Shown one piece after another: positions 28,364 to 61,152 of a DNA stretch of 64,000 nt. The notes below the pieces were generated by a model. The model made no database searches. It was not told the DNA's origin and saw nothing but the letters and a program-made list of their open reading frames with translations. Both the position numbers and the translations under genes were made by a program. The stretch's first letter is position 1; each line of letters starts with the position of its first letter. The DNA comes from Clostridiaceae bacterium (GTDB lineage Bacteria > Bacillota > Clostridia > Lachnospirales > Lachnospiraceae). Location: positions 1-64,000 of the forward strand of contig QXWR01000021.1 in the NCBI GenBank assembly GCA_009911065.1, in the 5' to 3' direction.

Positions 28364-28376
28364 AAAGGAGATTTTT

Positions 28377-30062
28377 ATGAAAAACAGTCAGAAGTCTATA
28401 CTTGCCATAGGCGGAATCGGAATCCTTGTCTTTGTGTCTGCTTTTGGGGGAATTTTCCTTACAAGGAACTTAGGAAAAACAGCAAAGACCGTCAATATGG
28501 AAGAAGCTTCTGCTGTCATTGAGCGATATGCAAAAAAAATCGGGGCCACACAGGCTGAGGTGATTAAATCTGCGGTGGAGCTGGCTGATACCCAGGTGGA
28601 TGAGCTGCCAGACATTGATAAGAACGAAGTGACAATCCAGCCTGTGACAAAATTGTACGCTGAAATTTTTTCCACTTATGAGAAATGCGGAAAAGGAAAA
28701 AACGGTTGGATGAATGAAGTGGCAGAGAAGTTTAATCAGGCGGGATATGAGGTGGACGGACAGCCAGTGTCTGTGATGATTCGAAATGTGGCTTCTGGAC
28801 TTGGCATGGATTATATCAGCACTGGAAAGTATGTTCCTGACGGGTATTCTCCCTCCAACGATTTTTGGGGCAAAATGCTTTTGGCAGACGGTATTTTCAT
28901 GGAGGAGATCAGCAGCGGTCTGGTCAATAACACGGCTGGGATTCTCCTTTCCAAAGACACCCAGGAAAAACTGACAAAACGGTATGGTTCCATCAACTTA
29001 AAGACCATTGTGGAGGCAACGGCAGGGGGAGAGTTTGCCATGGGTTACACAAACCCCAATGCTTCGGCCACGGGCCTTAACTTTCTGATCTCCACCTTAC
29101 AGACCTACAATGCCAAAGAACCTTTGAGCGAAGAGTCCGTTGAGGGATTTCAGGCGTTTCAGACCAATGTTCCTTTTGTGGCTTATACGACTGAGCAGAT
29201 GTCCAAGGCAGCGGAAACCGGATCTTTAGACGGATTTATTATGGAGTATCAGACCTATATTAACGACCCAGGACTGACCCGGAAGTATCAGTTTACTCCT
29301 TTTGGCTTTCTCCACACCAATCCTTTGTACACCACAAGGGATACCGATGTAAGAAAAAAGGAGATTTTGAAGCTTTTTTCAGAATTTTCCGCAAATGAGG
29401 AGAATCAAAGGTTAGCGGCAGAGTACGGATTTAATGCGGATTTGAATTACATTGTAGAGCAGGCAGAGGTGGATGGAGACACCCTTTTAAGCGCTCAGGA
29501 GCTGTGGAAGAAGGAGAAGGACAGCGGGAAACCGATTTTAGCTGTGTTTGTGGCTGACGTGTCCGGTTCCATGGATGGAGAGCCGTTAAATTCCTTAAAG
29601 ACCTCTTTGATTAACGGAATGAAATACATTAACACCAACAATTACATTGGTCTGGTTTCTTATTCGGATGAGGTGGTCATTCATGTGCCGGTGGGGGAAT
29701 TTAATTTGAATCATCAGTCTGCTTTTAAGGGAGCAGTGGAAAATTTGAGCGCAGCCGGAGGAACTGCTACCTTTGACGGGATTATTGTTGCGGCGGATAT
29801 GTTGATTCAGGCCAAGGAACAGTATCCAGATGCAAAGCTTATGATGTTTGTCCTGTCAGACGGGGAGACCAACCGGGGGTATTCTTTAAAAGATATTCAA
29901 AATCCTATAGATGCCCTTAACATTCCCATTTATACCATTGGGTATAATGCGGATCTTCCGGCCCTTGAGAGTATTTCTGCCATTAATGAGGCGGCAAGCA
30001 TCAATGCAGATTCTGACGATGTGATTTACAAGCTGAAAAATCTGTTTAATTCCAGTTTATAA
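28377..30062 (+). CDS. VWA-domain protein with solute-binding-like ectodomain
   Basis: The 561-residue protein has one N-terminal membrane anchor (ILAIGGIGILVFVSAFGGIFLT), so the rest is likely extracellular. Residues about 50-370 resemble a periplasmic binding protein type II fold, the form seen in extracellular solute-binding/VWA proteins. The VWA domain begins near residue 388 with the metal-site motif DVSGSMDG (Asp394, Ser396, Ser398), continuing with GGTATFDG and VLSDGETNRG, so metal binding looks intact. AAAGGAG precedes ATG 28377. With TelA and the membrane protein it may form a surface stress or adhesion complex. Confidence 0.85.
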   Translation: MKNSQKSILAIGGIGILVFVSAFGGIFLTRNLGKTAKTVNMEEASAVIERYAKKIGATQAEVIKSAVELADTQVDELPDIDKNEVTIQPVTKLYAEIFSTYEKCGKGKNGWMNEVAEKFNQAGYEVDGQPVSVMIRNVASGLGMDYISTGKYVPDGYSPSNDFWGKMLLADGIFMEEISSGLVNNTAGILLSKDTQEKLTKRYGSINLKTIVEATAGGEFAMGYTNPNASATGLNFLISTLQTYNAKEPLSEESVEGFQAFQTNVPFVAYTTEQMSKAAETGSLDGFIMEYQTYINDPGLTRKYQFTPFGFLHTNPLYTTRDTDVRKKEILKLFSEFSANEENQRLAAEYGFNADLNYIVEQAEVDGDTLLSAQELWKKEKDSGKPILAVFVADVSGSMDGEPLNSLKTSLINGMKYINTNNYIGLVSYSDEVVIHVPVGEFNLNHQSAFKGAVENLSAAGGTATFDGIIVAADMLIQAKEQYPDAKLMMFVLSDGETNRGYSLKDIQNPIDALNIPIYTIGYNADLPALESISAINEAASINADSDDVIYKLKNLFNSSL

Positions 30063-30156
30063 ACAGGGGGCAGTAAAATTTAACCGGCGTGCAGATGAAA
30101 GACAACCATTTGACCGTCTGATGTGACAGGGCAAATGGGCCAGAAAGGGGAGAAAT

Positions 30157-31314
30157 ATGGCGTTTACATTAGATATTCCGCAAAAGGAAGAAATAAAAAA
30201 GGTGGTGGAGGAGCAGGTTTCCCTGGACACGGAGACCACTTTGATGATTTCGGACGCTTCCAAGGAGAAGGGCCAGGAAATTCTGAAAGCGGATTACACC
30301 GACTTTGCAGAGCGAAAGGAATTGACAAAGGCCATTGAGGAGTTTGGCACAGATGTGGTGAAACAGTCTGCAAATAAAAATACCCTGATGAAAAACCGGC
30401 TGGGAGATTTGTCAAAAGCAGGAGGGGAGGCCGGGGAAGTGGCAAGAGGGCTGGCCCGATTGTCGGATCAGATGAAGGATTTGGACCCGTCGGGAATTGA
30501 TTTTCTCCGATCTGGTCCCCTGGGAAAGTTATTCAGCCCGGTCCGCGCCTATTTTAACAAATATAAAGCGGCGGATACCGTGATTGGGGAAATTATAGAT
30601 TCTCTCAACACAGGGGTAAAGGTATTAAGAGATGACAATACCACTTTGGAAATTGAGCAGGCTTCCATGCGGGATTTGACAAAACAGCTGAATCAGAAAA
30701 TCCTTTTGGGAGAAGAGCTGGACGTGTATTTGACGGCGCAGATTGAACATCAAAAGGTGGTCAACAAAGACCCGGAAAAGATTCAATTTCTGGAGGAGGA
30801 GATCTTGTTTCCTTTAAGGCAGCGGATGTTGGATTTTCATCAGATGCTTGCTGTGAACCAGAACGGCATCATTGCCATGGAAGTGATTCGAAAAAATAAT
30901 TATGAGCTGATTCGTTCGGTAAACCGTGCCCAGACGGTGACCATTGCCGCCTTAAACGTGGCAGTGACCGTGGCAGGAGCTTTGTACAATCAGAAAATTG
31001 TCTTAGAGAAGGTGAAGGCCCTTAACCAGGCTACCAACAATATGATCGCCTCCACTTCTCGGATGTTAAATACCCAGGGGACGGAGATTCAAAAGCAGGC
31101 CATGGACACCAACATTCAGGTGGAGACGTTAAAGGAGGCTTTCCGGGAGACGTTGGAAGCGTTGGATTCGATTAGTCAGTACAAACAGAAGGCTCTGCCT
31201 TTGATGAAAAATACCATCACAGAGTTTCGGGAACTGGCAGATGAGGGGGAGCAGGTGATTCAAAATATGGAAGAGTCGGAGATTATGCGGAGACGGCCAG
31301 GAGAAGGTGAGTAG
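30157..31314 (+). CDS. telA: TelA/KlaA-family toxic anion resistance protein
   Basis: The 385-residue protein matches the TelA family: LADYTDFAERKELTKAIEEFGTDVVKQSANKN-like N-terminal region and SGIDFLRSGPLGKLFSPVRAYFNKYKAADTVIGEIIDSLNTGVKVLRDDNTTLEIEQASMR. It is largely helical without membrane spans. TelA was named for tellurite resistance, but most homologues act in poorly defined envelope or antimicrobial stress responses. GGGGAG precedes ATG 30157. It ends the cluster that begins with the membrane protein at 27596. Confidence 0.92.
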   Translation: MAFTLDIPQKEEIKKVVEEQVSLDTETTLMISDASKEKGQEILKADYTDFAERKELTKAIEEFGTDVVKQSANKNTLMKNRLGDLSKAGGEAGEVARGLARLSDQMKDLDPSGIDFLRSGPLGKLFSPVRAYFNKYKAADTVIGEIIDSLNTGVKVLRDDNTTLEIEQASMRDLTKQLNQKILLGEELDVYLTAQIEHQKVVNKDPEKIQFLEEEILFPLRQRMLDFHQMLAVNQNGIIAMEVIRKNNYELIRSVNRAQTVTIAALNVAVTVAGALYNQKIVLEKVKALNQATNNMIASTSRMLNTQGTEIQKQAMDTNIQVETLKEAFRETLEALDSISQYKQKALPLMKNTITEFRELADEGEQVIQNMEESEIMRRRPGEGE

Positions 31315-31352
31315 GGGAATTTTACATCGTTAGGAAAGGAAAGAATCCGGGG

Positions 31353-31381
31353 TTGCTATTCTTGAAAAGTAGTGTTAGAAT
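31353..31381 (+). promoter_or_regulatory. Promoter of yebC
   Basis: TTGCTA (31353-31358) and TAGAAT (31376-31381) with a 17-base spacer, about 50 bases before the yebC start. Confidence 0.55.
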
Positions 31382-31431
31382 AGGTTTGTATTTGATCAAG
31401 AAGGACGAGAAGATAAGGAGAATTAGCTTTT

Positions 31432-32160
31432 ATGTCAGGACATTCTAAGTTTGCCAATATTAAGCACAAAAAAGAGAAGAATGACGCTGCCAAAGGCAAG
31501 GTTTTTACTGTCATCGGAAGAGAGCTGGCAGTGGCGGTGAAGGAGGGCGGTCCGGACCCGGCTAACAACAGTAAGCTTCGGGATGTAATCGCCAAGGCCA
31601 AGGCCAACAATATGCCAAATGATACCATTGACCGGGGGATTAAGAAGGCGGCTGGAGATGCTGGTTCAGTGAATTATGAACTGCTGACTTATGAGGGATA
31701 CGGGCCAAACGGAGTTGCCATTATTGTGGATGCTCTGACGGACAACAAGAACCGTACTGCAGCCAATGTGAGAAGTGCATTTACAAAAGGCAACGGCAAT
31801 GTGGGAACTCAGGGCAGTGTGTCTTTTATGTTTGATAAGAAGGGGCAGATCATTATCGGCAAAGAAGATTGTGAGATGGACCCGGATGAGTTGATGATGA
31901 TGGCCTTGGATGCAGGGGCAGAGGATTTTGCGGAAGAGGAAGACAGCTTTGAAGTGATCACGGCTCCAGAAGATTTCAGTCAGGTTCGGGAGACTTTGGA
32001 GAAGGCAGGGATTGAGATGCTGGAAGCAGATGTGACGATGATTCCTCAGACCTGGGTGGAGCTTACGGCAGAGGAAGATATTAAGCGGATGAACCGGCTT
32101 TTGGATTTGTTGGATGCAGATGATGACGTACAAGCGGTATATCATAACTGGGATGAATAA
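31432..32160 (+). CDS. yebC: YebC/PmpR-family protein
   Basis: The 242-residue protein starts [39 protein letters not shown], the family signature, and is full length. YebC-type proteins are reported as transcription regulators and more recently as factors that help ribosomes on difficult sequences such as polyproline. The latter is interesting because the nearby collagen-like gene encodes long PPx runs. AAGGAG precedes ATG 31432, and a hairpin terminator follows. Confidence 0.95.
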
Positions 32161-32223
32161 GAATTTGGTGCCGGTTAAAACAGTCTGGTGCGCTTTTAGG
32201 CAGGGGTCTGTTGTTTGAAACAG

Positions 32224-32268
32224 AAACAGGAAGGATTTGAAGCGCAGCTTCAGTCGTTCCTGTTTTTT
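32224..32268 (+). terminator. Intrinsic terminator after yebC
   Basis: AACAGGAA (32225-32232) pairs with TTCCTGTT (32257-32264) with an inner TGAAGC/GCTTCA stem. Six T follow the stem. Confidence 0.8.
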
Positions 32269-32356
32269 GTGACGGTTCAGACGACAACCCTGCCTGTTTT
32301 CTGTCAGGAAACAAACAGCAGAGAAAAGGATTTGGAAATAAGGAGAGTTATGAAGT

Positions 32357-33814
32357 ATGAGGACGTTTAGTGAACAGCAGATTGTGGCTCTTGCGCCAAA
32401 TGCAAACGCAGTGAGCAATGGCAGGAAGATCTCCAATGGGGGTGGATTTGTATCCCGTATGCGGTCAGAGGACGATACCTTTTACATGGGGGAATGTAAA
32501 GGGAGCGGGAAATCCAATTATGTGGTGTCAGCAGATTTTGTGGAGGAGGATAAGCCGGTTTTTCGGTGCAGCTGCCCAAGCCGGCAGTTTCCCTGCAAGC
32601 ACAGTTTGGGACTGATGTTTGAGATGGCAGCGGGAAAAGACTTTGCCATAGGGGAGATTCCAAAGGATATTTTGGAAAAACGGGAAAAGAAGCAGGCCAA
32701 AGAGGCAAAGAAGGCAGACGGGTCCAGTGAAAAGAAACCAGTATCCGAAAAAAGCGCCAAGGCAAGCAAGGCTGCCAAAACAAAAAAGATCAAGAAACAG
32801 CTGGAAGGTCTGAAACTGATGAAACAGATGACGGATCAGCTGATGCACACAGGACTTTCTTCTATGGGAAGTGTGTCCCTGAAAAGCTACCGGGATTTGG
32901 CAAAGCAGCTGGGAGACTATTATCTGCCTGGACCGCAGAATTATTTTAACCGGCTGGTGCTGGAGATGGAAGCCTACCAAAAGGATTCGGACAAGAAGCA
33001 TTATCACCAGGCTGTGGAAGTGTTAAAGCGGCTGCGGGCGCTGGAGAGAAAGGCTGCGGTTTACCTTCAGGGAAAATTAGAGACGGATTCGCCGGAAGCG
33101 GACGATGATATTTTATATGAAAAGCTGGGGGGAATCTGGAAGCTTGACCAGTTAAATGATTTGGGCCTGAAAAAGGAGAATGCAAAATTGATTCAGCTTT
33201 CCTTTCAGGTGATTTACGACGAGGCCCGAAAGGAATATGTGGATACGGGATATTGGGCAGATGTGGATACAGGGGAAATTTCCTGTACATTCAATTATCG
33301 TCCGGTTAAGGCGTTAAAGTATGTGAAGCAGGAGGATTCTTGTTTTGCATTGGTTCAAACACCCCTTCTTAGCTATTATCCAGGGGGGATGAATCGGAGA
33401 ATCCGGTGGGAGAGCGCTTCTTATGATCCTGTCACCAAAGAAGTTTTAAGTCAGGTGATCAGTCATGGACATGGGGATATTGGTGCAGCAGTGAAGCTGG
33501 CCAAAAATGAGATCAAAAATCTTCTCTCGGAAGATTTTTGTGGAATGCTGATTCGGTATAAGCAGATTGGGGTGGTAAGTACCGAAACTGGGGATTGGTT
33601 TGTCATGGAGGATGAGTCCGGAGAGAGGATAGAATTGTCTGGAAGAGAAGGCTGGGCAGATACAATGGCGGCTCTTTCTATGATTCCCAAAAAAAATGTG
33701 TTTCAGAATCAGGCATTGTTTGGTCTGATGTATTATGATTCCGATGACCATAAGCTTCGGATGTATCCCTGCAGCATTGTGACTGGAGAAGGGATTGTAA
33801 GGCTGCTGTATTAA
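32357..33814 (+). CDS. SWIM zinc-finger protein (YehQ-like)
   Basis: The 485-residue protein carries a SWIM zinc motif C-x-C-x6-C-x-H (FRCSCPSRQFPCKHSLGL) at about residues 71-86, a DNA- or protein-binding module. A Lys/Ala-rich linker of about 45 residues follows, then a long region without a known domain (YRDLAKQLGDYYLPGPQNYFNRLVLEMEAY...). It is the first gene of the five-gene set continuing with HEAT-like, MoxR, DUF5682 and VWA proteins. E. coli YehQ is a SWIM protein in a comparable neighbourhood. AAGGAG precedes ATG 32357. Confidence 0.85.
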   Translation: MRTFSEQQIVALAPNANAVSNGRKISNGGGFVSRMRSEDDTFYMGECKGSGKSNYVVSADFVEEDKPVFRCSCPSRQFPCKHSLGLMFEMAAGKDFAIGEIPKDILEKREKKQAKEAKKADGSSEKKPVSEKSAKASKAAKTKKIKKQLEGLKLMKQMTDQLMHTGLSSMGSVSLKSYRDLAKQLGDYYLPGPQNYFNRLVLEMEAYQKDSDKKHYHQAVEVLKRLRALERKAAVYLQGKLETDSPEADDDILYEKLGGIWKLDQLNDLGLKKENAKLIQLSFQVIYDEARKEYVDTGYWADVDTGEISCTFNYRPVKALKYVKQEDSCFALVQTPLLSYYPGGMNRRIRWESASYDPVTKEVLSQVISHGHGDIGAAVKLAKNEIKNLLSEDFCGMLIRYKQIGVVSTETGDWFVMEDESGERIELSGREGWADTMAALSMIPKKNVFQNQALFGLMYYDSDDHKLRMYPCSIVTGEGIVRLLY

Positions 33815-33848
33815 TCGGTGTTTTACGTTAAGTAAGGAGAACTGGGTT

Positions 33849-35777
33849 ATGAATTTGGATGCTATGTATGAATTGCGGGAGCGGCTGGAGACGGCGGCAG
33901 TGGCAGGCGTGGGTCTGATTCAGGAGGATTTCCGCCTGAAAAGAGCTGTGCAGCAGATAGAGCCTTTTGCTAAGGCATCGCCGGTGTTTCAGAAAATCTA
34001 TGGTCTGGCAGGAACTTTGACGGCACAGGAATGTGAGGACCGGGCGGGGGTTTTGCTGGATACCCTGGGACTTTTAGATGCAGTGCTTTGTACTCAGGGT
34101 TCTGTGGGAACGAAAGGTGAGTTAAAGGAGCTGGAAGTGGTTTTGACAGAGGGAGATCCTTACAGAGAGATTTCCTATGGCCGGATTGCTTCTGTGCTTC
34201 AGGCATTTCAGACCACCGGAGGGGGACGGTACGCCATTATCCGGGATGCCTATGACACGGACCCGGAGATTTTCAAGGATTACCGGATGAAATATTGGAT
34301 GGTGCGGGCTTTGGGGGACAGTTATGCAGAACTAGCTGAACTGGTTGCAAACTGGCTTGTCCTGGAGGGAGAGGCAGTGATTCCTTTATTGAAGCGGGGA
34401 TTTTTGCCGGACGGAAAGAGAGAGATGGCAAGGCGGATTGAGGTGATAGAGCAGATTGCCGGTGAGAAGGAAAATGATTTTTACCGGTATGCGGCAAAGG
34501 AAGGAAACAAGGAAATTCGGGAAGCAGCGCTTTTGGCCTTTCGCCATGATGCTTCCAATGAGGCGCTTCTTTTGGATTACCAAAAGTCAGAAAAGGGGAA
34601 ATGCAAGGAAGCGGCTTTGCGGTCTCTGGCCTTTATGGAAGGGGAGGCTGCTGCTGCTTTCTGGAAAATTAGACTGGAGAAAAAGCCTGAGGAGACTGTA
34701 AACTATCTGACTCCTTCTGGCGTAAACTGGGCAGGAGATCTGATTGCAGATGCCATTGAAACGTGGATTGATAAAGGGGAGCCGGAATCTGCGTCCGTGG
34801 AGGAAAAGCCCAAAGGGAAGGAGACAAAGGAGGAGCGGGCAAAGGAGAAGGCCCAGGCAAGGGAGGAGCGGGACCGGTATCGGCACCGGCTTGGTATTTT
34901 GTGGGAGGCTGCCGCGGGCAAAAGCTCGGAGCGGATTCGCCAGTGCTATGAAAAGGTTTATTCGATTCTTCCCAGAGAGGTGCCTAAGATTTTAAGCCAG
35001 TCGGTAATCCGCACTGGAGATCCTTCTTTGTATCGTCTGGCAGGAGAACTGTATGAGCAGTATGGGGATGAATTTTTGGAGCCGGTATTTTTGGCGTCTC
35101 TTCTCTCATGTTCTGCCCAGGAGACTTATGAGCGGTTTCACAAATTCATTCATCCAGACGGACTTTTGCGGACATTGACAGGCAAAAAGGCAGATGCCAC
35201 TGGAGTTCTTTACGGGTTTGCCCGGATTGTGTATCGGGAGGAGGAAGGAAAGTATGGAATCACCCTGGAGGACATGAACAGTCCCATACGGGAACGGGCG
35301 ATCTGCCGGTGGATTCCAGCAGGGCTGGATTTGCGCTGGTATCCGCTGCTTTTAAATTATCCGGGCCGGTTTGCCACAGGGAGGCGGAACAATTACAGTA
35401 TGTACCGGAATTACTATGACTGGATGATGGCAAAATTGTACCGGCCGGATGTGGAGGAATTTCAGGAGGCTTACGGAAGATTTTTCTATGAGGGAGCTTT
35501 ACAGCTTACGCCTACTACAGAAGGGATTCAGATGATGAAACGGTGTGGGTGGAAAAAATATGATGGGCTTTTGGCAGCCTGCATAAAAGATGCAAATTCC
35601 ATTCCCAGCTATTTGATTCGAAATCTTCTTGGGGAACTTCCTTTAAGTAACAAAGAGATTGCGGAGGAGTTAAGCCAGATTATTGAGAAAAGGAAAGGAA
35701 AGGCAATAAACGGAATTTCCATTTTGGAACATTGGAGGGATGGGCTTTTAAGCGGAGTTCCGGTAGAAAAGCTGTAA
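33849..35777 (+). CDS. HEAT-repeat-like protein of the MoxR/VWA cluster
   Basis: The 642-residue protein is almost wholly helical and shows HEAT-like repeats (EIREAALLAFRHDASNEALLLDYQ; GKCKEAALRSLAFMEGEAAAAFWKIRLEK). A very charged Glu/Lys segment lies at about residues 315-345. It has no catalytic motif, so a scaffold or adaptor role is likely. It follows the SWIM gene by 34 bases and precedes MoxR on the same strand. It may belong to the DUF5691 group, but I cannot confirm that by eye. TAAGGAG precedes ATG 33849. Confidence 0.7.
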   Translation: MNLDAMYELRERLETAAVAGVGLIQEDFRLKRAVQQIEPFAKASPVFQKIYGLAGTLTAQECEDRAGVLLDTLGLLDAVLCTQGSVGTKGELKELEVVLTEGDPYREISYGRIASVLQAFQTTGGGRYAIIRDAYDTDPEIFKDYRMKYWMVRALGDSYAELAELVANWLVLEGEAVIPLLKRGFLPDGKREMARRIEVIEQIAGEKENDFYRYAAKEGNKEIREAALLAFRHDASNEALLLDYQKSEKGKCKEAALRSLAFMEGEAAAAFWKIRLEKKPEETVNYLTPSGVNWAGDLIADAIETWIDKGEPESASVEEKPKGKETKEERAKEKAQAREERDRYRHRLGILWEAAAGKSSERIRQCYEKVYSILPREVPKILSQSVIRTGDPSLYRLAGELYEQYGDEFLEPVFLASLLSCSAQETYERFHKFIHPDGLLRTLTGKKADATGVLYGFARIVYREEEGKYGITLEDMNSPIRERAICRWIPAGLDLRWYPLLLNYPGRFATGRRNNYSMYRNYYDWMMAKLYRPDVEEFQEAYGRFFYEGALQLTPTTEGIQMMKRCGWKKYDGLLAACIKDANSIPSYLIRNLLGELPLSNKEIAEELSQIIEKRKGKAINGISILEHWRDGLLSGVPVEKL

Positions 35778-35842
35778 AGGAATATTGGGATGTTGAAAAG
35801 AATGGACAGGAACATTTTTTGGAAAGGGGAGAAAGGTTGATT

Positions 35843-36928
35843 ATGGAACAGGAGATGCAGCGGCTGCCGGCAGAGCAGTTGTTTCAAAAGGAGATTGATG
35901 CGCTGATTGCCAATGAAACGTATCCAATACCTACTGGGTGGCGGATGTCGCCTCGGTCGGTGCTTACTTATATCTGCGGAGGGAAGTCTGGGGATGTGGA
36001 GATTACCCCTAAGTATATTGGTCATGAACGTCTGGTGGAGATTGCTATTTCCACGCTGGTTACAGATCGGGCTTTGCTTCTCATTGGAGAGCCGGGAACC
36101 GCAAAGTCCTGGCTGTCGGAACATTTGACGGCAGCGATCAATGGGGATTCCACCAGAGTCATTCAGGGGACTGCCGGGACTACAGAGGAGCAGATTCGGT
36201 ATTCTTGGAACTATGCCATGTTGATTGCAAACGGCCCTTCCAGGGAGGCCATGATTCCAAGTCCGATTTACCGGGCTATGGAACAGGGGATGATTGCCCG
36301 TGTGGAGGAGATTTCCCGGTGTGCGTCGGAAGTACAGGATGCTCTTATTTCGATTTTGTCGGAAAAGCGGATTTCCGTTCCTGAGCTGGGGGTGGAGATT
36401 CCTGCCAGAAAAGGGTTTTCAGTTATTGCCACAGCGAATACCCGGGATAAGGGAGTCAATGACATGTCAGCGGCTTTAAAACGGCGGTTTAATATTGTGG
36501 TTTTGCCGTCTCCGGAAAGCCTGGAGGCGGAGATGGAGATTGTAGAAACCCGAATCCGGCAGCTGGCGGGAAATCTGGACTTGAATGCACGGCTTCCTGA
36601 GGCAGAGGTGGTGAAAAAGGTATGCACCATTTTCCGAGAACTTCGCGCTGGTGTAACTTTGGACGGAAAACAGAAGTTAAAATCAACTTCCGGAGTTCTT
36701 TCCACAGCTGAGGCCATTTCCCTTCTTGCCAACAGCATGGCGTTGGCGGGAAGTTTTGGGAATGGGCAGGTGACGGATGCTGATCTTGCCGCAGGACTTC
36801 AGGGAGCCGTAGTCAAGGAGGACAGCAAGGACGGAAAGGTTTGGGAAGAGTATCTGGAAAACATTATGAAGAAGCGAGGGTCCAAGTGGCTGTCCTTGTA
36901 TCAGGAGTGCAGGGAGCTGAATGGTTAA
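35843..36928 (+). CDS. MoxR-type AAA+ ATPase (YehL-like)
   Basis: The 361-residue protein has Walker A GEPGTAKSWL at about residues 83-92 and the sensor/arginine-finger region KGFSVIATANTRDKGVNDMSAALKRRFNIVVLPSP, typical of MoxR ATPases. Such ATPases act with a VWA partner to remodel or insert metal cofactors into target proteins. ATG 35843 follows GGGGAGAAAGG; an open extension to 35732 lies within the preceding gene. Its TAA stop overlaps the next ATG (TAATG), giving coupled translation. Confidence 0.9.
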   Translation: MEQEMQRLPAEQLFQKEIDALIANETYPIPTGWRMSPRSVLTYICGGKSGDVEITPKYIGHERLVEIAISTLVTDRALLLIGEPGTAKSWLSEHLTAAINGDSTRVIQGTAGTTEEQIRYSWNYAMLIANGPSREAMIPSPIYRAMEQGMIARVEEISRCASEVQDALISILSEKRISVPELGVEIPARKGFSVIATANTRDKGVNDMSAALKRRFNIVVLPSPESLEAEMEIVETRIRQLAGNLDLNARLPEAEVVKKVCTIFRELRAGVTLDGKQKLKSTSGVLSTAEAISLLANSMALAGSFGNGQVTDADLAAGLQGAVVKEDSKDGKVWEEYLENIMKKRGSKWLSLYQECRELNG

Positions 36929-39369
36929 TGGAGGGCAAGGTGATAGGGCAGGATAAGAAAAGCAGCCGGAAACAGGGAAAAGTCAGTCCTCATGTGTTCG
37001 GAATTCGCCATCTGTCTCCGGCGGGAGCTTATTTTGTGCGGAAGTTTCTGGATAAAACCGCTCCGGAGTTGGTGCTGATTGAGGGACCGTCCGATTTTAC
37101 GGAGCTTTTGGAAGATTTGGGGAAGAAAGAGGTAAAACCGCCAGTGGCGGTGATGGCGTATACATCAGAGCTGCCTGTCCAAACCGTTCTCTATCCTTTT
37201 GCCGTGTATTCCCCGGAGTATCAGGCCATTTTGTGGGCAAAGGAACATGGCTGTGCCTGTCGGTTCTGCGATCTGCCTTCCGAGGTGTTTTTGGGACTAC
37301 GAAATCAAGAGCGGCTGCGGCAGCAGGAAAAGATGATAAAAGAGCTTGCAGAGTCTAAGAACGGGGAAGATTTGGCGGAAGGTGAGATGAGGCTGCCAGA
37401 GAACGGTTCGGAAGCTGTGGTAAAAGGCGTTCCGGAAGTTACAGCGGAAAGTGAGACAGGTCTGCGAAAGGAGAGTCCAACCGCTTATGTGTACCGACGG
37501 CTGGACGAGCTTTCCGGAGACGGGGACCATGAGACTTTCTGGGAGAGGACCATGGAACAGGCCATGGAGGAAGACGGGTACCAGAAGGGAGCCTGGGAGT
37601 TTGGCAGTTCTCTTAGGGAACTTTCGGAGAAAGATGAGAACGGGGAGAATCAAATCCGGGAGGCTTTTATGCGCCGGGAGATTGCCCGTGCCGTGAAGGA
37701 AGGGATTTCTCCAGATAAGATTGTGGTGGTTACTGGAGCGTTTCATGTAAACGGAATTTTAGAAGACAAAAAGCCCATGACGGAAAAGGAGTTTAAGAAA
37801 CTTCCCCGAATGGAAATAAATAAAACCTTAATGCCTTACTCTTATTTCAGGCTCTCAGAACGGGCCGGATATGGAGCTGGAAACCGGGCGCCTGCTTACT
37901 ATGAATTTTTGTGGGACGGATTGTGCAGGGAGAAGCCGGATTATGCAGGACGCCGGTATCTGGCTGCTCTGGCCAAGTTTCAGAGGGAACATGGAAATAT
38001 GGTATCCTCAGCCGAGATCATTGAAGGGGTACAGTTGGCGTATTCTCTGGCAGCCCTTCATGATGGAAAGATTCCTGCTTTAAGGGATTTGCGGGATGCG
38101 GCAGTAACTTGCATGGGTCATGGGAATTTTTCAGAGATAGCTCTGGCTGTGGCAGATACCGAGATTGGAACCTGCATTGGCAGGCTGCCAGAGGGGGTTA
38201 GCCAGACTTCCATCCAGTCGGATTTTTACCGAAGATTAAAGGAGCTTCGACTAGAAAAGTACAGATCTGTGACAATGCAGGAATTGACTTTGGATTTGCG
38301 GGAAAAATTGACTGTAAAATCAGAGAAGGCAGCATTTCTTGATCTGGAACGGTCCTTTTTCCTTCATCGGCTGAAGGTGCTTGGAATCTCTTTTGCGGAA
38401 CCTGTGGCAGTGCGGCAGGAGCGGGCTACCTGGGCGGAGCAGTGGGCTTTGCGCTGGACTCCGGAGGCGGAGATTCAGATTGTGGAGGCTGTGTTAAAAG
38501 GAGATACCGTGGAACAGGCGGCTTCCTTTGTTTTGAAGGAGCGGACAGAAGGGGCTGGCATTGGGGAAATTGCCGCAGTGATTGAGGAGGCATGTAATTG
38601 CGGAATGCCGTCTTCCATGGAGTATGGGGTGACTGCTTTACAGAGTACGGCAGTGGAGGCTGTGGCTCTTCATGAGATAGCAGAGACATCCAGACGGCTT
38701 TCTATGGTTCTTCGATATGGGGATATTCGCAGATTAAACCGCGACCCTCTGATTCCGATTTTGTCTCAGCTGTTTTTGCGTGCATGTCTCATTTTAACCG
38801 GAGAGTGCGTCTGTGATGACACTGCAGCTAAGTCGGTCGCCCAGTCGGTTTTAACCCTCCATGAGGTGTCGGTAAACCATGACTTTCTTGACGGAAAACG
38901 CTGGCTTACAGAGCTTTGGGAGATTGCCAGAAGAGATGATTTAAACACCCGCCTGTCTGGACTTGCAGCTGCCATTCTTTTGGAAATGGGACAGATGGAT
39001 AAAGAGGAATTGGGACAGGAGGTTCAAAGGCGTTTGTCCAAAGGGAATCCGGCAGAGCTTGGGGCTGGATGGTTTGAAGGTCTGTCTATGAAAAATCATT
39101 ATGCTCTGATTGCCCGTCTGACTTTGTGGGAAAAGCTAAGCGACTATTTGGAAGAGTTGGATGACGAGGAGTTTAAGCGGGCTTTGGTCTTTTTGCGTCG
39201 GGCGTTTGCAGATTTTAGTTCTGAGGAGAAAAATCAGATAGCAGAGAATTTGGGAGAGATCTGGCAGGTAAATCCGACCCAGGTCAGTGAGCTTGTAAAT
39301 GGACCGATTTTGGAGGAAGAGATTTCTTTATTGTCTGGGTTGGATGATTTTGATTTTGGGGATATTTGA
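36928..39369 (+). CDS. DUF5682 family protein (YehM-like)
   Basis: The 813-residue protein starts with FGIRHLSPAGAYFVRKFLDKTAPELVLIEGPSDFTELL, and near residue 265-275 has IVVVTGAFHVNGIL. These H-x-S-P, E-G-P and G-A-F-H elements resemble the EreA/ChaN/TraB-like hydrolase fold, which would make it the catalytic member. The long C-terminal half is helical without a recognised domain. ATG 36928 is coupled to the MoxR stop; the longer frame from 36841 lies inside the MoxR gene. The substrate is unknown. Confidence 0.85.
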   Translation: MEGKVIGQDKKSSRKQGKVSPHVFGIRHLSPAGAYFVRKFLDKTAPELVLIEGPSDFTELLEDLGKKEVKPPVAVMAYTSELPVQTVLYPFAVYSPEYQAILWAKEHGCACRFCDLPSEVFLGLRNQERLRQQEKMIKELAESKNGEDLAEGEMRLPENGSEAVVKGVPEVTAESETGLRKESPTAYVYRRLDELSGDGDHETFWERTMEQAMEEDGYQKGAWEFGSSLRELSEKDENGENQIREAFMRREIARAVKEGISPDKIVVVTGAFHVNGILEDKKPMTEKEFKKLPRMEINKTLMPYSYFRLSERAGYGAGNRAPAYYEFLWDGLCREKPDYAGRRYLAALAKFQREHGNMVSSAEIIEGVQLAYSLAALHDGKIPALRDLRDAAVTCMGHGNFSEIALAVADTEIGTCIGRLPEGVSQTSIQSDFYRRLKELRLEKYRSVTMQELTLDLREKLTVKSEKAAFLDLERSFFLHRLKVLGISFAEPVAVRQERATWAEQWALRWTPEAEIQIVEAVLKGDTVEQAASFVLKERTEGAGIGEIAAVIEEACNCGMPSSMEYGVTALQSTAVEAVALHEIAETSRRLSMVLRYGDIRRLNRDPLIPILSQLFLRACLILTGECVCDDTAAKSVAQSVLTLHEVSVNHDFLDGKRWLTELWEIARRDDLNTRLSGLAAAILLEMGQMDKEELGQEVQRRLSKGNPAELGAGWFEGLSMKNHYALIARLTLWEKLSDYLEELDDEEFKRALVFLRRAFADFSSEEKNQIAENLGEIWQVNPTQVSELVNGPILEEEISLLSGLDDFDFGDI

Positions 39370-39488
39370 ATGTGTCAGAGGGAGTTGGAAGGAAGCTTAT
39401 CACCCATTCCAGGTTGTTAAAAAATGGGGGTTGTTAGATATGCCTTCTGTTTTGCGGGAGATTTGGTATGAATGAGGGAGGTTGATGG

Positions 39489-40673
39489 ATGGAGATTAAA
39501 GAGCAGATGAAGCGGTGGCGGCTGATTTTGGGGGAGGAAAGCCAGGGGCAGTTTGATTCGATGACAGGAGGATCGGATGCCTCCCTTTCTGAAGAACAAT
39601 GGCTGATGGATCAGGCTTTGGCTGCAATTTACAATAACAGCTCTGCGGGAGGCTTTGGCATGAAGGGAGCTGGAAAAGGCCCGTCAAGTCCAAGGATTAC
39701 CCAGTGGCTGGGAGATGTGAGAACTTTATTTGATAAGGATTTGGTGAAAATCGTTCAGTCGGATGCCATGGAGCGGTGCGGTTTAAAGCAGCTGATTTTT
39801 GAGCCGGAGCTTTTGGAGCAGATGGAGCCGAACATGAATCTTGCCACTACCATTTTGCTTTTAAAAGATCAGGTGCCAAAGAGGAGCAAGGACAGTGTAA
39901 GGGAATTTATTGGGAAGATTGTGGAAGAGATCAATAAGCTTTTAGAAAGCGACATTCGGCGGGCTGTGACAGCGGCCATAAACCGCCGTCAGCATTCCCC
40001 GATCCCTTCGGCAGCAGCCCTTGATTTTCCTACCACCATCCGCCGCGGAATCAAAAATTACAACCGGGAGTTGAAACGGATTATCCCGGAGCATTACTAC
40101 TTTTTTGACCGGACTACCCTTACTGCATCCAGCAAATTTACTGTGATTTTGGATGTGGACCAGAGTGGTTCCATGGGAGAATCGGTCATTTATTCTTCTA
40201 TCATAAGCTGTATTCTGGCAAGTATGGCTGCCATTAAAACAAGGATTGTGGCCTTTGATACTCAGGTGGTGGATTTGACGGAAAAATGTGAAGACCCAGT
40301 GGATTTGCTTTTTGGATTTCAGCTGGGTGGCGGGACGGACATTAACAAATCCATTGTTTACTGCCAGCAGTTTGTGGAAAATCCCAAGAAGACCTTATTC
40401 TTTTTGATCAGCGACCTGATGGAAGGCGGCAATCGGGCCGGAATGCTTCGACGGCTGGAGGAGATGAAGGAATCCGGGGTGACGGTGGTTTGTCTTCTGG
40501 CGATTGCAGATGGAGGAAAGCCTTATTATGATGCTCAGATGGCTCAGAGAATCGCCTCCGTGGGGATTCCCTGTTTTGCCTGTAATCCTCAAAAGCTGCC
40601 TCTTTTGTTGGAGCGGGCTTTAAAGGGGCTGGATTTAACAGGGTTTCAGAAGGAATTTGAAGAGAAAAAATAG
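39489..40673 (+). CDS. CoxE-like VWA-domain protein (YehP-like)
   Basis: The 394-residue protein has a helical N-terminal half and a VWA domain starting near residue 217 (KFTVILDVDQSGSMGESVIYSSII). Its metal-site motif is DQSGS (Asp224, Ser226, Ser228), then GGGTDINKSIVYC and FLISDLMEGG. There is no signal peptide, so it is cytoplasmic, unlike the VWA protein at 28377. It is the expected partner of the MoxR ATPase two genes upstream. ATG 39489 follows GGGAGG (39476-39481). A very strong terminator follows and closes the operon. Confidence 0.88.
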   Translation: MEIKEQMKRWRLILGEESQGQFDSMTGGSDASLSEEQWLMDQALAAIYNNSSAGGFGMKGAGKGPSSPRITQWLGDVRTLFDKDLVKIVQSDAMERCGLKQLIFEPELLEQMEPNMNLATTILLLKDQVPKRSKDSVREFIGKIVEEINKLLESDIRRAVTAAINRRQHSPIPSAAALDFPTTIRRGIKNYNRELKRIIPEHYYFFDRTTLTASSKFTVILDVDQSGSMGESVIYSSIISCILASMAAIKTRIVAFDTQVVDLTEKCEDPVDLLFGFQLGGGTDINKSIVYCQQFVENPKKTLFFLISDLMEGGNRAGMLRRLEEMKESGVTVVCLLAIADGGKPYYDAQMAQRIASVGIPCFACNPQKLPLLLERALKGLDLTGFQKEFEEKK

Positions 40674-40707
40674 AAGAGAAAAATAGATTTGTAGAAAAGT
40701 TAAGATC

Positions 40708-40782
40708 AAAAAGTCCGGATTTGAGGAAAGAGAGAACGTATGAAAATACGTATCTTCATTTTCAAATCCGGACTTTTTCGAT
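40708..40782 (+). terminator. Strong intrinsic terminator closing the MoxR/VWA operon
   Basis: AAAAAGTCCGGATTTGA (40708-40724) pairs perfectly with TCAAATCCGGACTTTTT (40762-40778), 17 bp. The loop holds a second small ATACGT-type hairpin. Confidence 0.88.
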
Positions 40783-40853
40783 TTTTCAAACAGGGGATGT
40801 GTCCTGGAAAATCATTGATTCATAATCTGTTAGAAAGAATATTTTAGGAGTCT

Positions 40854-41957
40854 ATGATTTTGGTCACGATCAGTTTGTGTATGATTGTAAAAAATGAGGA
40901 GCTGGTTTTGGAGCGTTGTCTTGCGTCAGCAAAAAATATTGCAGATGAAATTATTATTGTGGATACAGGCTCTACAGATAGGACAAGGGAAATTGGAAAA
41001 CGGTATGGAAAGGTGTATGATTTTACGTGGATTGACGATTTTTCCGCTGCCAGAAACGAGTCTTTTTTCCGGGCAAACATGGATTACTGCATGTGGTTGG
41101 ATGCAGATGATGTGGTGACAGAGGAAAACCAGAAGAAATTATTGGAGCTGAAAATGTCTCTGAATCCAGATACGGATGTGGTGATGATGAAGTATGCAAT
41201 CTCGGAAGATGAGGAAGGAAAGCCTTTGTTTTCTTACTATCGGGAGAGAATGGTGAAAAATGGGAAGGGATTTTTGTGGGAGGGAAGAGTCCATGAAGCG
41301 ATTGTGCCAAGGGGGAAGGTGGTCTATTCGGATATTGTGATTGCTCACCGGAAAATGGCTGCTGGTGACAAAGAGCGGAATCTTAGAATCTATGAGACAA
41401 TGCTTCAGGAGGGAGAGGTTTTAAAGGGGAGAAACTTGTTTTATTATGGGAGGGAACTGATGGCTCATGGCAGGTACCAAGATGCGGTGTGTGTCATGGA
41501 AGAGTTTTTGGATGGAGAAGGATGGGTGGAAAATCAGATTGAAGCATGTTTGAACTTGGCGTTTTGTTTTGGTGCATTGGGACAGGAGACAGAACGGGCG
41601 AAAGCTTTGCTTCGCAGTTTTTTGTATGATTCTCCCCGGGGAGAGGCATGTTTTGAGATTGGACAATATTTCCAGAGACAGAAAAAATGGCAGCAGGCGG
41701 TTTTTTGGTATGAGACTGCTTTGAAGGGAAATCCCCGGACCGAGAGCGGGGGATTTGTCCGGTCCGATTATTATGGTTATCTTCCGGAAATAAACTTGTG
41801 TGTCTGTTATGACCAGATGGGAGAGAGGGAAAAGGCATATGAGTATCATTTGAGGGCAAAGAAACGAAAACCAGAGTCGAAAGAAGTAAAATGGAATGAG
41901 GAGTATTTTCGGAATTTCAGGGACGAACCAAATGGACAGGAGGGACATAGGATATAG
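40854..41957 (+). CDS. Glycosyltransferase family 2 with TPR-like C-terminus
   Basis: The 367-residue enzyme has a GT-A fold start ([40 protein letters not shown]) and the metal/nucleotide-binding WLDADD at about residues 82-87, then a C-terminal part of TPR-like helices ([24 protein letters not shown]). It transfers a sugar from a nucleotide donor. The neighbouring collagen-like gene is rich in Thr/Ser-containing GXY repeats, as are spore-surface collagen-like glycoproteins, so that protein is a plausible acceptor. AGGAG precedes ATG 40854. Confidence 0.9.
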
Positions 41958-42033
41958 TAAACCAACAGCAGTGGATGAATCGTACCGGGAAATGGTTTGC
42001 TGTTGGCGGGGAGAAGAAGAAAGGAGCAATTCT

Positions 42034-42999
42034 ATGTATTATGATTCTGTAGATTCTGGCTGTGGAACAAATCAGGGGTGTGGGATGGGCCGTCGGTGCT
42101 GTCGTCATAATCCGCCAAGGCCACCAAGACCGCCGATGCCGCCAGGACCACCCATGCCGCCAGGACCGCCGATGCCGCCGGGACCACCGATGCCGCCGGG
42201 ACCACCAAGACTACCCATGCCGCCGGGACCGCCAAGACCACCGATGCCGCCAAGACCGCCGATGCCACCGGGACCACCCATGCCGCCGGGACCACCAAGA
42301 CCGCCGATGCCGCCAGGACAACCGATGCCACCTAGACTGCCGATGCCACCTAGACCACCCATGCCGCCAGGACCGCCGATGCCGCCGGGACCGCCAAGAC
42401 CACCAATGCCACCAGGACCGCCGATGCCGCCGGAACCGCCATACCCATATCCACTAGGTTCTTTTTGTTGCTGTCGGGGACCGGAAGGACCAGAAGGTCC
42501 GCCAGGTCCTATGGGATTGAGGGGAGCTACCGGACCAGAAGGACCCATGGGGATGCAGGGTCCAACTGGTCCGATTGGTCCTATGGGTCTTCCAGGAGTG
42601 ACTGGTCCTTCCGGACCAGCGGGGATACAGGGTCCAGCGGGTCCGGAAGGGCCTATGGGTTTGCCAGGAGCGACTGGCCCAACCGGCCCAATGGGACCTA
42701 TGGGAGTACAAGGACCTATTGGGCCTCAGGGTCCAGCGGGAGTGCCAGGAATGACTGGCGCCCCAGGAGCTGTGGGTCCGGCTGGAGCCACGGAGCCATA
42801 TATTTATATAAAAGTGCTACAAACCCGCATGGTTACGGGATTTTCTGCAAATCAAAATATTACGGAAATCTCTATAATCACACACATTCTCATGGCAGGT
42901 GGGTTTGGACAAGCTGAAATTCAAAAATCCCAGAGTAAAAATTTAACGGAATTTAATACATATTTTATTGTGACCAGAGAGTTAAAAATACTTTACTGA
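42034..42999 (+). CDS. Proline-rich, collagen-like surface protein
   Basis: The 321-residue product has a short Cys-rich start, about 105 residues of PPx repeats ([17 protein letters not shown]...), a CCC cluster, then about 105 residues of G-x-y collagen repeats ([19 protein letters not shown]). A C-terminal tail of about 65 residues has no recognised domain. Such proteins form trimers on spore or cell surfaces, like BclA. ATG 42034 follows AAAGGAG. The C-terminal tail looks atypical and the ICE begins within about 100 bases, so the gene may have been truncated or have a replaced end. Confidence 0.85.
42118..42438. repeat. DNA repeat encoding PPx units
   Basis: Nine-base units of the CCGATGCCGCCG/GGACCACC type are repeated about 35 times with variation (arginine and glycine alternating). 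The array is prone to length change. Confidence 0.85.
42478..42798. repeat. DNA repeat encoding collagen G-x-y units
   Basis: The repeats are GGxCCx-type triplets for GPx and are more diverged than the PPx repeat. The reading frame is uninterrupted. Confidence 0.8.
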
Positions 43000-43176: not shown

Positions 43177-44082
43177 ATGCCAGACCCTGCCATGCTGGAT
43201 TACTTTTATGGCGATGAAGCGGAGCAGTATACCTTCTACCGGATACCCAAGGTGCTGTTCACTGACCCCGGCTACCGGCGCATATCTTCTGACGCCAAGA
43301 TCCTCTACGGCCTTATGCTTGACCGCATGGGGCTATCCATTCGCAACGGCTGGCTGGATGATTTAAACCGGGTATTTATCTACTTCACTTTGGAGGACGC
43401 TTTGGAATATTTGTGCTGCGGTCATACAAAGGCGGTTTCTCTCTTTGGGGAACTGGATAAGAATGGGCTGATCGAACGGAAGAAGCAGGGCCAGGGAAAG
43501 CCCACGATTATCTACGTGAAAAACTTCATTCGGAAACCGGAAATCCAGACTTCCGAAAAACGGAAGTCTAAAGTTCCGCAAACGGGAAGTCAAGACTTCC
43601 AGAAAACGGCTACTAATAATACTGAGAGAAATAAAACTGAATTAAGTGATACCGACCTATCAATCTATCCGGTCAGGGAACAGGTGGAAAGCCATGAGCC
43701 AACGATAGATGATAGGATTGATAGGATACGGGCTTACCGGAGGTTGATTAAGGAAAATATTGAGTATGACATTACCAGGGATCGCCTTGGCTATGACGCC
43801 GAAATTCTGGACGAGATATTAGACATTATGGTGGACACGGTATGCGGCACAAAACCCATGGTGCGGATCAGCGGCCAGGACTTCCCTACGGAAGTGGTAA
43901 GGAGCCGTCTGTTAAAACTCAACTCGGAGCATATCAAGTACGTGGTGGACTGCTTAAAGTCCAACACTACAAAAGTACGCAATATCCGTTCCTACCTGCT
44001 TACCTCCCTTTACAACGCCCCTACAACCATAAGCAGCTACTACACAGCCCTGGTCAACCATGACCTTTACGGCGGCGGGTAA
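43177..44082 (+). CDS. repA: Replication initiator protein A (RepA-like)
   Basis: The 301-residue protein starts MLDYFYGDEAEQYTFYRIPKVLFTDPGYRRISSDAKILYGLMLDRMGLS, the RepA N-terminal family. It binds DNA through a winged helix (EDALEYLCCGHTKAVSLFGELDKNGLIERKKQGQGKPTIIYVKNF). The C-terminal half (RIRAYRRLIKENIEYDITRDRLGYDAEILDEILDIMVDTVCG) is a DUF6017-like domain. In conjugative elements it is thought to support replication of the excised circle. GGAAAGGTGG precedes ATG 43177. Confidence 0.9.
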   Translation: MPDPAMLDYFYGDEAEQYTFYRIPKVLFTDPGYRRISSDAKILYGLMLDRMGLSIRNGWLDDLNRVFIYFTLEDALEYLCCGHTKAVSLFGELDKNGLIERKKQGQGKPTIIYVKNFIRKPEIQTSEKRKSKVPQTGSQDFQKTATNNTERNKTELSDTDLSIYPVREQVESHEPTIDDRIDRIRAYRRLIKENIEYDITRDRLGYDAEILDEILDIMVDTVCGTKPMVRISGQDFPTEVVRSRLLKLNSEHIKYVVDCLKSNTTKVRNIRSYLLTSLYNAPTTISSYYTALVNHDLYGGG

Positions 44083-44130
44083 CTGCTTTTTTCTTGCCTA
44101 TACCGGCGTTGCCGGAGAAAGGAGTGTTCC

Positions 44131-44484
44131 ATGAAAAAACCATTCGCTTACATTACCGCTGTCTGGAAGGGTGGCGAGTTTACGGTCGCTGACCAGGCAA
44201 GCGTTTACTGCCGGAAAGTCTATGAGGCCGGGTTTACCCCAATCTGTCCGGTTCTCTACCTGCCCAATTTCCTGCGGGACGCTATCCCCGCCGAGCATAA
44301 GGACGGCATTGACATGGCCCGTGAACTTCTGCGCCGGAGCCATGTTCTGATCGTCTGCGGTGAAGAAGTAGACGAGGCGGTGAAGAACGACATCGCCGTT
44401 GCCCAGCGGCTGGGTATCACGGCGACCACCCTGGACGGGATTTTAACGATACGCTCCCAGGGAGAAAACCAGGTGGAACCTTAA
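44131..44484 (+). CDS. DUF4406/nucleoside deoxyribosyltransferase-like protein
   Basis: The 117-residue protein has an N-terminal FAYITAVWKGGEFTVADQASVYCRKVYEAGFTPICPVLYLP, followed by GIDMARELLRRSHVLIVCGEEVDEAVKNDIAVAQRLGI. This pattern fits the nucleoside 2-deoxyribosyltransferase fold (DUF4406). Its role in the element is unknown; it could handle nucleotides or sense them. AAAGGAG precedes ATG 44131. It lies between RepA and PcfB, as in other elements of this family as far as I recall. Confidence 0.8.
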   Translation: MKKPFAYITAVWKGGEFTVADQASVYCRKVYEAGFTPICPVLYLPNFLRDAIPAEHKDGIDMARELLRRSHVLIVCGEEVDEAVKNDIAVAQRLGITATTLDGILTIRSQGENQVEP

Positions 44485-44520
44485 TGGTTCCCTCCTGCCA
44501 GGGAAAGGAGTGGTGACAGA

Positions 44521-49572: not shown

Positions 49573-49573
49573 A

Positions 49574-49627
49574 GGCTCCACCGACAGGATATCCCTTGCG
49601 GGTTTTCAAAATCGGTGGGGCCTTTTT
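49574..49627 (+). terminator. Terminator after virD4
   Basis: GGCTCCACCGA (49574-49584) pairs with TCGGTGGGGCC (49612-49622) with one G-U pair, and five T follow. Confidence 0.75.
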
Positions 49628-49681
49628 CTTTTTGCCAAAATCCGACGGATACCGGAAAAAGCAACGTAAAAGGAGGCTGTT

Positions 49682-49897: not shown

Positions 49898-49953
49898 AAA
49901 CCAGTTACAGATAACCAGCAGACAACACATTTTCAAAAACAGGAGGAAAATAT

Positions 49954-50172: not shown

Positions 50173-50189
50173 GGGAAAGGTAGTGGCCT

Positions 50190-51059: not shown

Positions 51060-51095
51060 TCAGAACATCAAAACGAAACGGAAAGGAGGATTTCT

Positions 51096-53880: not shown

Positions 53881-53890
53881 GGGGGCTGCC

Positions 53891-55618: not shown

Positions 55619-55628
55619 GGAAAAAGGA

Positions 55629-61149: not shown

Positions 61150-61152
61150 GGC

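Follow-up and report, generated by a model that had tools for sequence, protein, structure and literature searches.

The closest described relative of the locus reported here is ddrTUVWX, a Deinococcus gene set that was noted in 2009 (PMC2669436), named in 2017 (PMC5552922), presented in those papers as having no known function, and reported in the latter to be radiation-induced through IrrE/DdrO. A second relative is the yeh cluster of Escherichia coli (yehI-yehL-yehM-yehP-yehQ), and a looser likeness, the pairing of MoxR with vWA, is shared with the MoxR-vWA ternary conflict systems (PMC7159879, whose main text mentions neither SWIM nor yeh). Here we analyze a stretch of 64,000 nucleotides (the window; positions 1 to 64,000 of contig QXWR01000021.1, assembly GCA_009911065.1) from a Clostridiaceae bacterium assigned to the Lachnospiraceae. 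An open reading frame (ORF) scan and family searches placed five ORFs at 32357-40673, all on the forward (+) strand, encoding a SWIM protein, a HEAT-like protein, a MoxR ATPase, a DUF5682 protein and a CoxE-like VWA protein. An earlier sequence-only reading had called this set a likely undescribed system; its gene order is in fact that of ddrTUVWX, and both that order and the yeh cluster are already known. What is new is the grouping of the DUF5682 N-terminal domain with the TraB/Tiki superfamily. A literature search, made outside most subscription journals, returned no paper that treats ddrTUVWX together with either the yeh cluster or the Bacillota operon, no paper on DUF5682, and no role for YehL-class MoxR ATPases.

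The window and ddrTUVWX share an identical gene order: SWIM, helical protein, MoxR, DUF5682 and CoxE-like VWA. The D. taeanensis operon is described as having an extra ORF of 78 amino acids (aa) between ddrV and ddrW (PMC9510100), and the locus we retrieved from the same strain (L097) has exactly that ORF between MoxR and DUF5682, which identifies T as SWIM, U as DUF5691, V as MoxR, W as DUF5682 and X as VWA. In trees of the last three proteins, those of L097 fall each time on the window's side of the branch that divides the family into two types, A and B (below). The second protein, by contrast, is DUF5691 in Deinococcus and, in the window, a HEAT protein with no detectable relation to it: the DUF5691 family (PF18944) had no match among the window proteins or in the Fusobacterium relative, and hhalign comparison of HEAT with DUF5691 gave probabilities of 0.1-0.5%, which do not support the idea that the two are the same family. 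Because its second gene is not DUF5691, we regard the window operon as a sister subtype and not as ddrTUVWX itself.

Kinship with the E. coli cluster, already proposed from the letters alone, was upheld by identities of 39% to YehL (MoxR), 25% to YehM (DUF5682) and 32% to YehP (VWA), and for YehQ by profile only, as the window SWIM protein had no BLAST match to it. The yeh cluster thus holds homologues of MoxR, DUF5682, VWA and SWIM together, and the YehI family matches the window HEAT protein weakly by profile (hhalign 0.3% with 3 rows, 86.5% over 111 columns with 13 rows), a match that may reflect helical repeats only. The cluster differs from the window in being of type B, with DUF4132/YehI instead of HEAT, a downstream SWIM gene, and a place on the opposite side of all three trees. 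The yehI-to-mlrA stretch also occurs, arranged as on the chromosome, on an E. coli IncF plasmid (NZ_CP103756.1, L101), where it lies between IS26 copies and near blaCTX-M-15; for the chromosomal DUF4132/yeh region, insertion of a resistance transposon has been described (PMC9334617).

The five genes form an operon. From a DUF5682 scan of genome contigs we took the best 80 loci (46-82% identical; hosts in Lachnospiraceae, other Clostridia and Paenibacillus), and 61 were judged, the other 19 having too little flank. All five genes lay on a single strand in 61/61 testable loci, which shows that the arrangement is not due to chance; the window's exact order recurred in 53, and the HEAT gene was doubled in 6. 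Among 299 genomes of the window's own family, 28 had DUF5682 and 21 had the HEAT protein (E <= 0.001), including 19 with a HEAT match at E <= 1e-30. DUF5682 was also present in 17 of the 19 strong-HEAT genomes (Fisher p = 1.6e-18, uncorrected for relatedness) and in 18 of all 21. Of the two strong-HEAT genomes that lack DUF5682, one (G317) carries a decayed operon remnant with pieces of MoxR, HEAT and SWIM (L118), and the other (G579) has a partial HEAT match. The check on independent occurrence that had been named beforehand as a possible refutation did not refute the set. A broader sample of the phylum had DUF5682 above cut-off in 5 of 299 genomes, the window's own included, and phage records had a family match in 1 of 50,697. 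In a phage record named "Bacteriophage sp." (MT835988.1, hit H32; 14 kb) the DUF5682 protein shares 54% identity with that of the window; the record is perhaps a misnamed bacterial contig.

The DUF5682 protein appears to consist of an N-terminal TraB/Tiki-superfamily domain (about residues 17-330) followed by an all-helical C-terminal part (predicted model; predicted local distance difference test score, pLDDT, 86.1). A profile of the N-domain (44 rows) aligned with a profile of 20 TraB/PrgY/GumN ORFs at an hhalign probability of 96.2 (E 2.2e-9, for this single comparison), and the alignment keeps the His, Glu and Arg motifs and the second His motif in register; as controls, reversed or block-shuffled TraB profiles gave 0.2-1.8%, and profiles of VWA, MoxR and SWIM 0.1-0.4%. 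With rows of a single type, A or B, the probability was 95.0 each time, and with PrgY-like TraB rows alone it was 96.2. The TraB ORFs were drawn from the middle of loci L126-L145, and leaving out L134 and L137, which have no GxxH and could be in the wrong frame, left ten PrgY-like rows and an unchanged 96.2%. Within DUF5682, H28, E52, R244, E245, G270 and H273 are invariant in 44/44 rows, although loci and rows were partly chosen by their first His and Glu motifs; across the full set of DUF5682 ORFs, 104/112 have the first His motif and 112/112 have RExxM (ORF-based motif counts here include a few loci fetched twice).

GxxH and a Glu are the motifs of the Tiki superfamily (TIKI, TraB/PrgY/GumN, ChaN, Ere). 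DUF5682 shares with it the TraB/PrgY profile match, two GxxH-like motifs and Glu/Arg motifs in the same order; it differs in its long helical C-terminal part and in sitting with MoxR and VWA. H28, E52 and H273 make up the catalytic-type His/Glu set expected of a superfamily member. Of the 2His/2Glu set of RRSP, the first Glu, two residues before the His, has no counterpart in DUF5682, where Ile/Val stands in its place. Pfam scans of the 44 single proteins gave a weak ChaN match in two (best 0.004) and TraB in one (0.021), with unrelated families at a similar level, such as AAA_lid_2 in three (0.0045). Ere and ChaN matched in 1 and 2 of 119 genomes, respectively, and a search of DUF5682 against the PDB by sequence gave nothing useful. 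On these profile comparisons the N-terminal domain groups with Tiki-superfamily hydrolases, and the EreA/ChaN-like motifs picked out by the sequence-only reading take their place there. The superfamily includes esterases and metal-dependent and metal-independent endopeptidases, and some of its members lack the catalytic set (PMC6254334). We infer that DUF5682 may act as a hydrolase.

The window SWIM protein scores 18.9 bits against Pfam SWIM, just below the 19.6 cut-off, and has the full CxCx6CxH motif, which appears as CxCPSR..CKH in 72 of 75 SWIM-family ORFs. In its predicted structure (pLDDT 88.9), residues 2-99 superpose on ZSWIM8 (Z 11.6, root-mean-square deviation (rmsd) 2.5, 95 residues aligned), and residues of about 250-480 align with HIN-200 domains (Z at most 6.7, rmsd 5.7, 182 aligned) and with RPA70 (Z 5.8, rmsd 5.0, 182 aligned). 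Foldseek returned 23 matches at E <= 0.001, all of them HIN-200 domains (best E 3e-5), some of which have titles that do not say so and are presumably such domains; LEF-3 and RPA came next. The C-terminal part is thus likely, on the model, to consist of two OB folds, and the protein may bind nucleic acid, in keeping with the earlier suggestion that it handles it.

The second protein had no Pfam match. A profile of its relatives matched the PDB mostly at designed alphaRep chains (best 3e-15), which we take to be HEAT-like, and at 6veh, titled HEAT repeat domain-containing protein (1.3e-9), as its description as HEAT-like had anticipated. This position is filled by a HEAT-like protein in Bacillota, DUF5691 in Deinococcus and DUF4132 in E. 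coli, and by profile comparison the helical partners of the subtypes are not clearly related. The predicted pairing of MoxR with a CoxE-like VWA protein was borne out by the family matches in Table 1. Walker A reads GEPGTAK[ST] in 103/112 MoxR ORFs and EE(I/L)(S/T)R is present in 112/112; an AAA+ core, the intact Walker A, the identity to YehL and the VWA linkage mark the window protein, on comparison with YehL, as being of the YehL type (a published list of MoxR subfamilies includes YehL; PMC3893208). The metal-ion-dependent adhesion site (MIDAS) of the VWA proteins reads [DE]xSGSM in 107 of 108 ORFs.

Neighborhood divides the family in two. Type A, the window's layout, runs SWIM - helical protein - MoxR - DUF5682 - VWA; its DUF5691 version was found in plasmid records from Deinococcus, Methylosinus, Rhizobium and Hymenobacter, and its HEAT version also in Fusobacterium. 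In type B, MoxR - DUF5682 - VWA are accompanied, in varying order, by DUF4132/YehI and by a SWIM protein that is longer and often double; this type includes the E. coli cluster, Iodobacter, Sinorhizobium, Streptomyces, and eleven loci of the window's own family or phylum (L110-L117, L122-L124), 9 of which have YehI within the fetched stretch. The window's genome holds both types. Its second set, on contig C11 (L004 7923-18719 and L005 344-6226), encodes MoxR, DUF5682, VWA, a double-SWIM protein and a YehI-like protein, with a HydF hydrogenase-maturase gene inserted between DUF5682 and VWA; the DUF4132/YehI partner and the downstream SWIM gene that mark type B are both present there and both absent from the window locus. 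With labels assigned by neighborhood, quick trees were made of DUF5682 (17 A and 16 B rows), MoxR (18 and 16) and VWA (17 and 16), which leave out the Streptomyces fusion and other ORFs of at least 1000 aa. In each tree one branch separated the types with an approximate likelihood-ratio support (SH-aLRT) of 100, and the program flagged L103 as a long branch and many rows for uneven amino-acid composition. The same split in three trees implies that the MoxR, DUF5682 and VWA genes were inherited together. Between the SWIM proteins of type A and those of type B/YehQ, the relationship extends past the finger (294 columns, hhalign probability 96.0).

Fusions and insertions occur across the family. 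In Streptomyces (L100) one 1257-aa ORF contains DUF5682 (35-998) and VWA_CoxE (1027-1248), an arrangement repeated in S. atratus (L109). A single 1009-aa ORF of Hymenobacter sp. HDW8 (L096) has the SWIM motif and DUF5691; this fusion is less sure because its near twin H. radiodurans has the two as separate ORFs that overlap, and the same record has DUF5682 broken in three. The gap between DUF5682 and VWA looks as if it were a favored place for insertion: in L068 it contains an RtcB RNA ligase (by scan) and an ankyrin protein (by eye), and elsewhere HSDR-like, PEBP and an RHH and PIN pair, all named by eye. The RtcB, PEBP, HSDR-like and PIN genes are varied, and we treat them as insertions. Operons of the DUF5691 subtype repeatedly have an additional ORF between MoxR and DUF5682, of 78 aa in Deinococcus and 203 aa in Hymenobacter; Pfam gave no match for the latter.

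Taken together, we propose that a MoxR/VWA machine runs a Tiki-type DUF5682 enzyme, guided by a nucleic-acid-binding subunit, in recovery from damage or stress, a proposal to which we give about an even chance of being right. The five-gene architecture is well supported. The five proteins would form one multi-subunit machine, in which the MoxR AAA+ ring and VWA adaptor would spend ATP to load, switch or remodel DUF5682, the SWIM/tandem-OB protein would bind nucleic acid and bring the machine to its site, and the helical-repeat protein, whichever of HEAT, DUF5691 and DUF4132/YehI fills that position, could serve as a scaffold or client grip; such physical assembly we infer. Its job may be recovery from nucleic-acid damage or a related stress. 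The link to damage comes from D. deserti, whose operon is Deide_18730-18690: Table 2 of PMC5552922 lists Deide_18730 (SWIM) as more than 10-fold induced and 18720, 18710 and 18690 as more than 5-fold, all IrrE-dependently, and its Table 4 shows the operon for 4 of the 7 Deinococcus species, accompanied each time by the motif (both tables as we read them). In the Lachnospiraceae-related host a damage role would be an extension of these findings.

Several observations weigh against this proposal. Radiation and DdrO control has been shown in Deinococcus only, the one genus with expression data, and PMC5552922, which lists the four operon neighbors as induced, does not name Deide_18700, in the DUF5682 position. 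The LexA-type box GAACN4GTTC is absent from the window and was found upstream of 0/63 Bacillota operons; over their full 1.45 Mb the same loci have 18 such sites. Many of the clients served by MoxR/VWA pairs are unconnected with DNA. GumN-like TraB rows alone matched the DUF5682 N-domain at only 10.3%; GumN and PrgY, which share a Pfam family, match each other at 97.6. Conservation of the first His motif partly reflects the choice of loci and rows. A whole-protein fold search with DUF5682 gave helical-repeat proteins and nothing at E <= 0.001, leaving the Tiki alpha/beta fold unconfirmed by structure; the helical part filled the results of that search. Foldseek TM-scores of the HIN matches are low (0.16-0.22 of the query), and the OB matches are middling, with HIN and RPA70 Z-scores no higher than those of single-OB proteins (up to 7.3) and below the tool's safe level. 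With scores this close to those of single-OB proteins, a HIN/RPA-like pairing is less likely than the mere presence of two OB folds.

Other searches for damage-response sites gave little. In L097 the best site for the radiation/desiccation response motif (RDRM) is five mismatches off, just before SWIM, and tied with another place. LexA-like boxes were sought in 12 stretches from Pseudomonadota, Bacteroidota and Actinomycetota and appeared only in five. Sinorhizobium L095 has one GTTCN7GTTC about 700 bases before the MoxR gene, which we take as chance because 20 kb there contain three such sites; Nocardia L107 has two sites, with the operon start not fixed; and those of L093, L104 and L108 lie inside or beyond genes. 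No CTGTN8ACAG site was found in E. coli L003.

MoxR/VWA pairs are best known from maturation, as in NorQ/NorD and CoxD/CoxE (PMC3893208, PMC11432383), and the five genes might accordingly encode a chaperone that inserts a metal or cofactor into DUF5682 or an unlinked client, with nucleic acid uninvolved. The window VWA is of the CoxE family, yehM is named among the mutated genes in a copper-evolution paper, and the HydF maturase gene lies inside the type-B operon of the same genome; HydF occurred in 1 of 24 loci searched, however, and looks like a one-off for that reason. The superfamily itself gives a divided answer, as Tiki is metal-dependent and RRSP metal-independent (PMC6254334). This chaperone would leave the conserved SWIM/OB protein without a role, and we found no recurrent metalloenzyme neighbor, no Pfam family being present in more than 3 of 96 flanking proteins, which makes it, to our minds, rather unlikely. 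These 96 proteins, of 187 flanking ORFs, come from 24 of 47 usable loci, with ORFs called mechanically and no matched control. They bear equally on an anti-phage or conflict function, which had been left open from the letters alone and would liken the operon to the MoxR-vWA ternary systems that occur in multicellular bacteria. The patchy distribution in family and phylum is consistent with such a function, as are a plasmid copy that adjoins a type I restriction cluster and a MoxR that scores 29.1 against bpMoxR of Pfam (cut-off 27) along a stretch of 51 residues. Some flanking proteins match 56 PADLOC families at E <= 1e-10; among the best 25 of these, mad3 and mad8 appear in 3/96 each and ShosA, PsyrA and AriA in 2, and AAA_21 (Pfam) is in 3/96. 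Yet none of the five proteins has a PADLOC match at E 0.01, and the best 25 of 104 Pfam families in the flanks are mostly metabolic, transport or regulatory. Pfam found no VMAP or beta-propeller among the five, nor did Pfam and PADLOC find an effector module, unlike the ternary systems. With the family nearly absent from phage records and no direct support found in the scans of the five proteins or of the flanks of 24 loci, we consider a conflict role quite improbable.

RNA repair or RNA quality control, with the SWIM-OB protein binding RNA, would fit the RtcB gene between DUF5682 and VWA in L068, the induction of the D. deserti RtcB-family gene Deide_21600 by irradiation (PMC5552922), and the closest SWIM structure, ZSWIM8, from a complex whose title gives it as bound to AGO2-miR-7-CYRANO; OB folds can bind either RNA or DNA. 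Of the gaps inspected, however, a single one contained RtcB, and unrelated inserts occupy the same place elsewhere, and we judge this explanation decidedly improbable. Returning to a DNA-directed machine, a bolder form would make it a bacterial counterpart of p97-SPRTN, in which a SWIM/OB-guided, AAA+-driven Tiki-type protease clears proteins stuck on damaged DNA. We think this hardly probable; if true, such a device would exist in two ancient types across Bacillota, Fusobacteria, Deinococcus, Pseudomonadota, Bacteroidota and Actinomycetota, E. coli included.

Table 1. Coordinates of the operon in the window and of additional genes in related operons (L numbers denote related loci, with positions in each).
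Feature	Position	Strand	Basis or remark
SWIM zinc-finger protein, 485 aa	32357..33814	+	SWIM motif CSCPSRQFPCKH; DdrT/YehQ counterpart
HEAT-like alpha-helical repeat protein, 642 aa	33849..35777	+	DdrU (DUF5691) position; PDB profile matches
MoxR AAA+ ATPase, 361 aa, YehL/DdrV type	about 35843..36928	+	AAA_5 9.8e-39; Walker A GEPGTAKS
DUF5682 protein, 813 aa, YehM/DdrW type	36928..39369	+	PF18934 7e-153
CoxE-like VWA protein, 394 aa, YehP/DdrX type	39489..40673	+	VWA_CoxE 4.8e-42; MIDAS DQSGSM with GGGT
Likely terminator, long hairpin and inner stem, T-rich run after	40708..40778	+	Folding of 40690-40800
Loci with inserts in the DUF5682-VWA gap	L068 3499-6839; L056 4327-5532; L049 and L052 after DUF5682; L027 3737-4486		
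Extra ORF between MoxR and DUF5682	L097 8747-8983; L096 8362-8973; L105 8371-8982		

Tight junctions had been described throughout the window operon. They hold for MoxR and DUF5682, whose stop and start overlap as TAATG (36926-36930), and not for DUF5682 and VWA, which are 119 bases apart; for MoxR an alternative upstream start is possible (TTG, 35732). The 17-bp terminator noted earlier corresponds to a hairpin 3' of the VWA gene with 17-bp arms (40708-40724 and 40762-40778) that folds at -42 kcal/mol (z = -7.1; equally stable shuffles 0/200). Its long stem and inner hairpin kept it out of the results of a simple scan for terminators with loops of 3-8 bases, which found sites no more numerous than in shuffles. 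NCBIfam had no match above cut-off for any of the five proteins, and Rfam nothing in 31000-41200. A yebC gene lies ahead of the operon, and just upstream of both a VWA protein adjoins a TelA (toxic anion resistance) protein (28347-31314). Before 6.2 kb, a phage minor tail protein and an opposite-strand phage integrase (820-6126) probably mark a prophage end; beyond the operon lie a collagen-like protein with long Pro-rich and Gly-X-Y repeats (41896-42999) and conjugative-element genes (RepA_N, TrbL_2, TraG P-loop, NlpC/P60 and topoisomerase; 43177-62475), with a reverse transcriptase among them (46794-48698) that is perhaps a group II intron's. The operon thus sits between a probable prophage and a conjugative element and does not obviously belong to either.

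For the family as a whole, three orphan sets, Deinococcus ddrTUVWX, the E. coli yeh cluster and the Bacillota operon, become one, and this family gains a proposed hydrolase domain and a proposed nucleic-acid-binding subunit. As a bearer of the yeh genes, E. coli K-12 offers an easy host in which to ask what YehL-class MoxR ATPases do.

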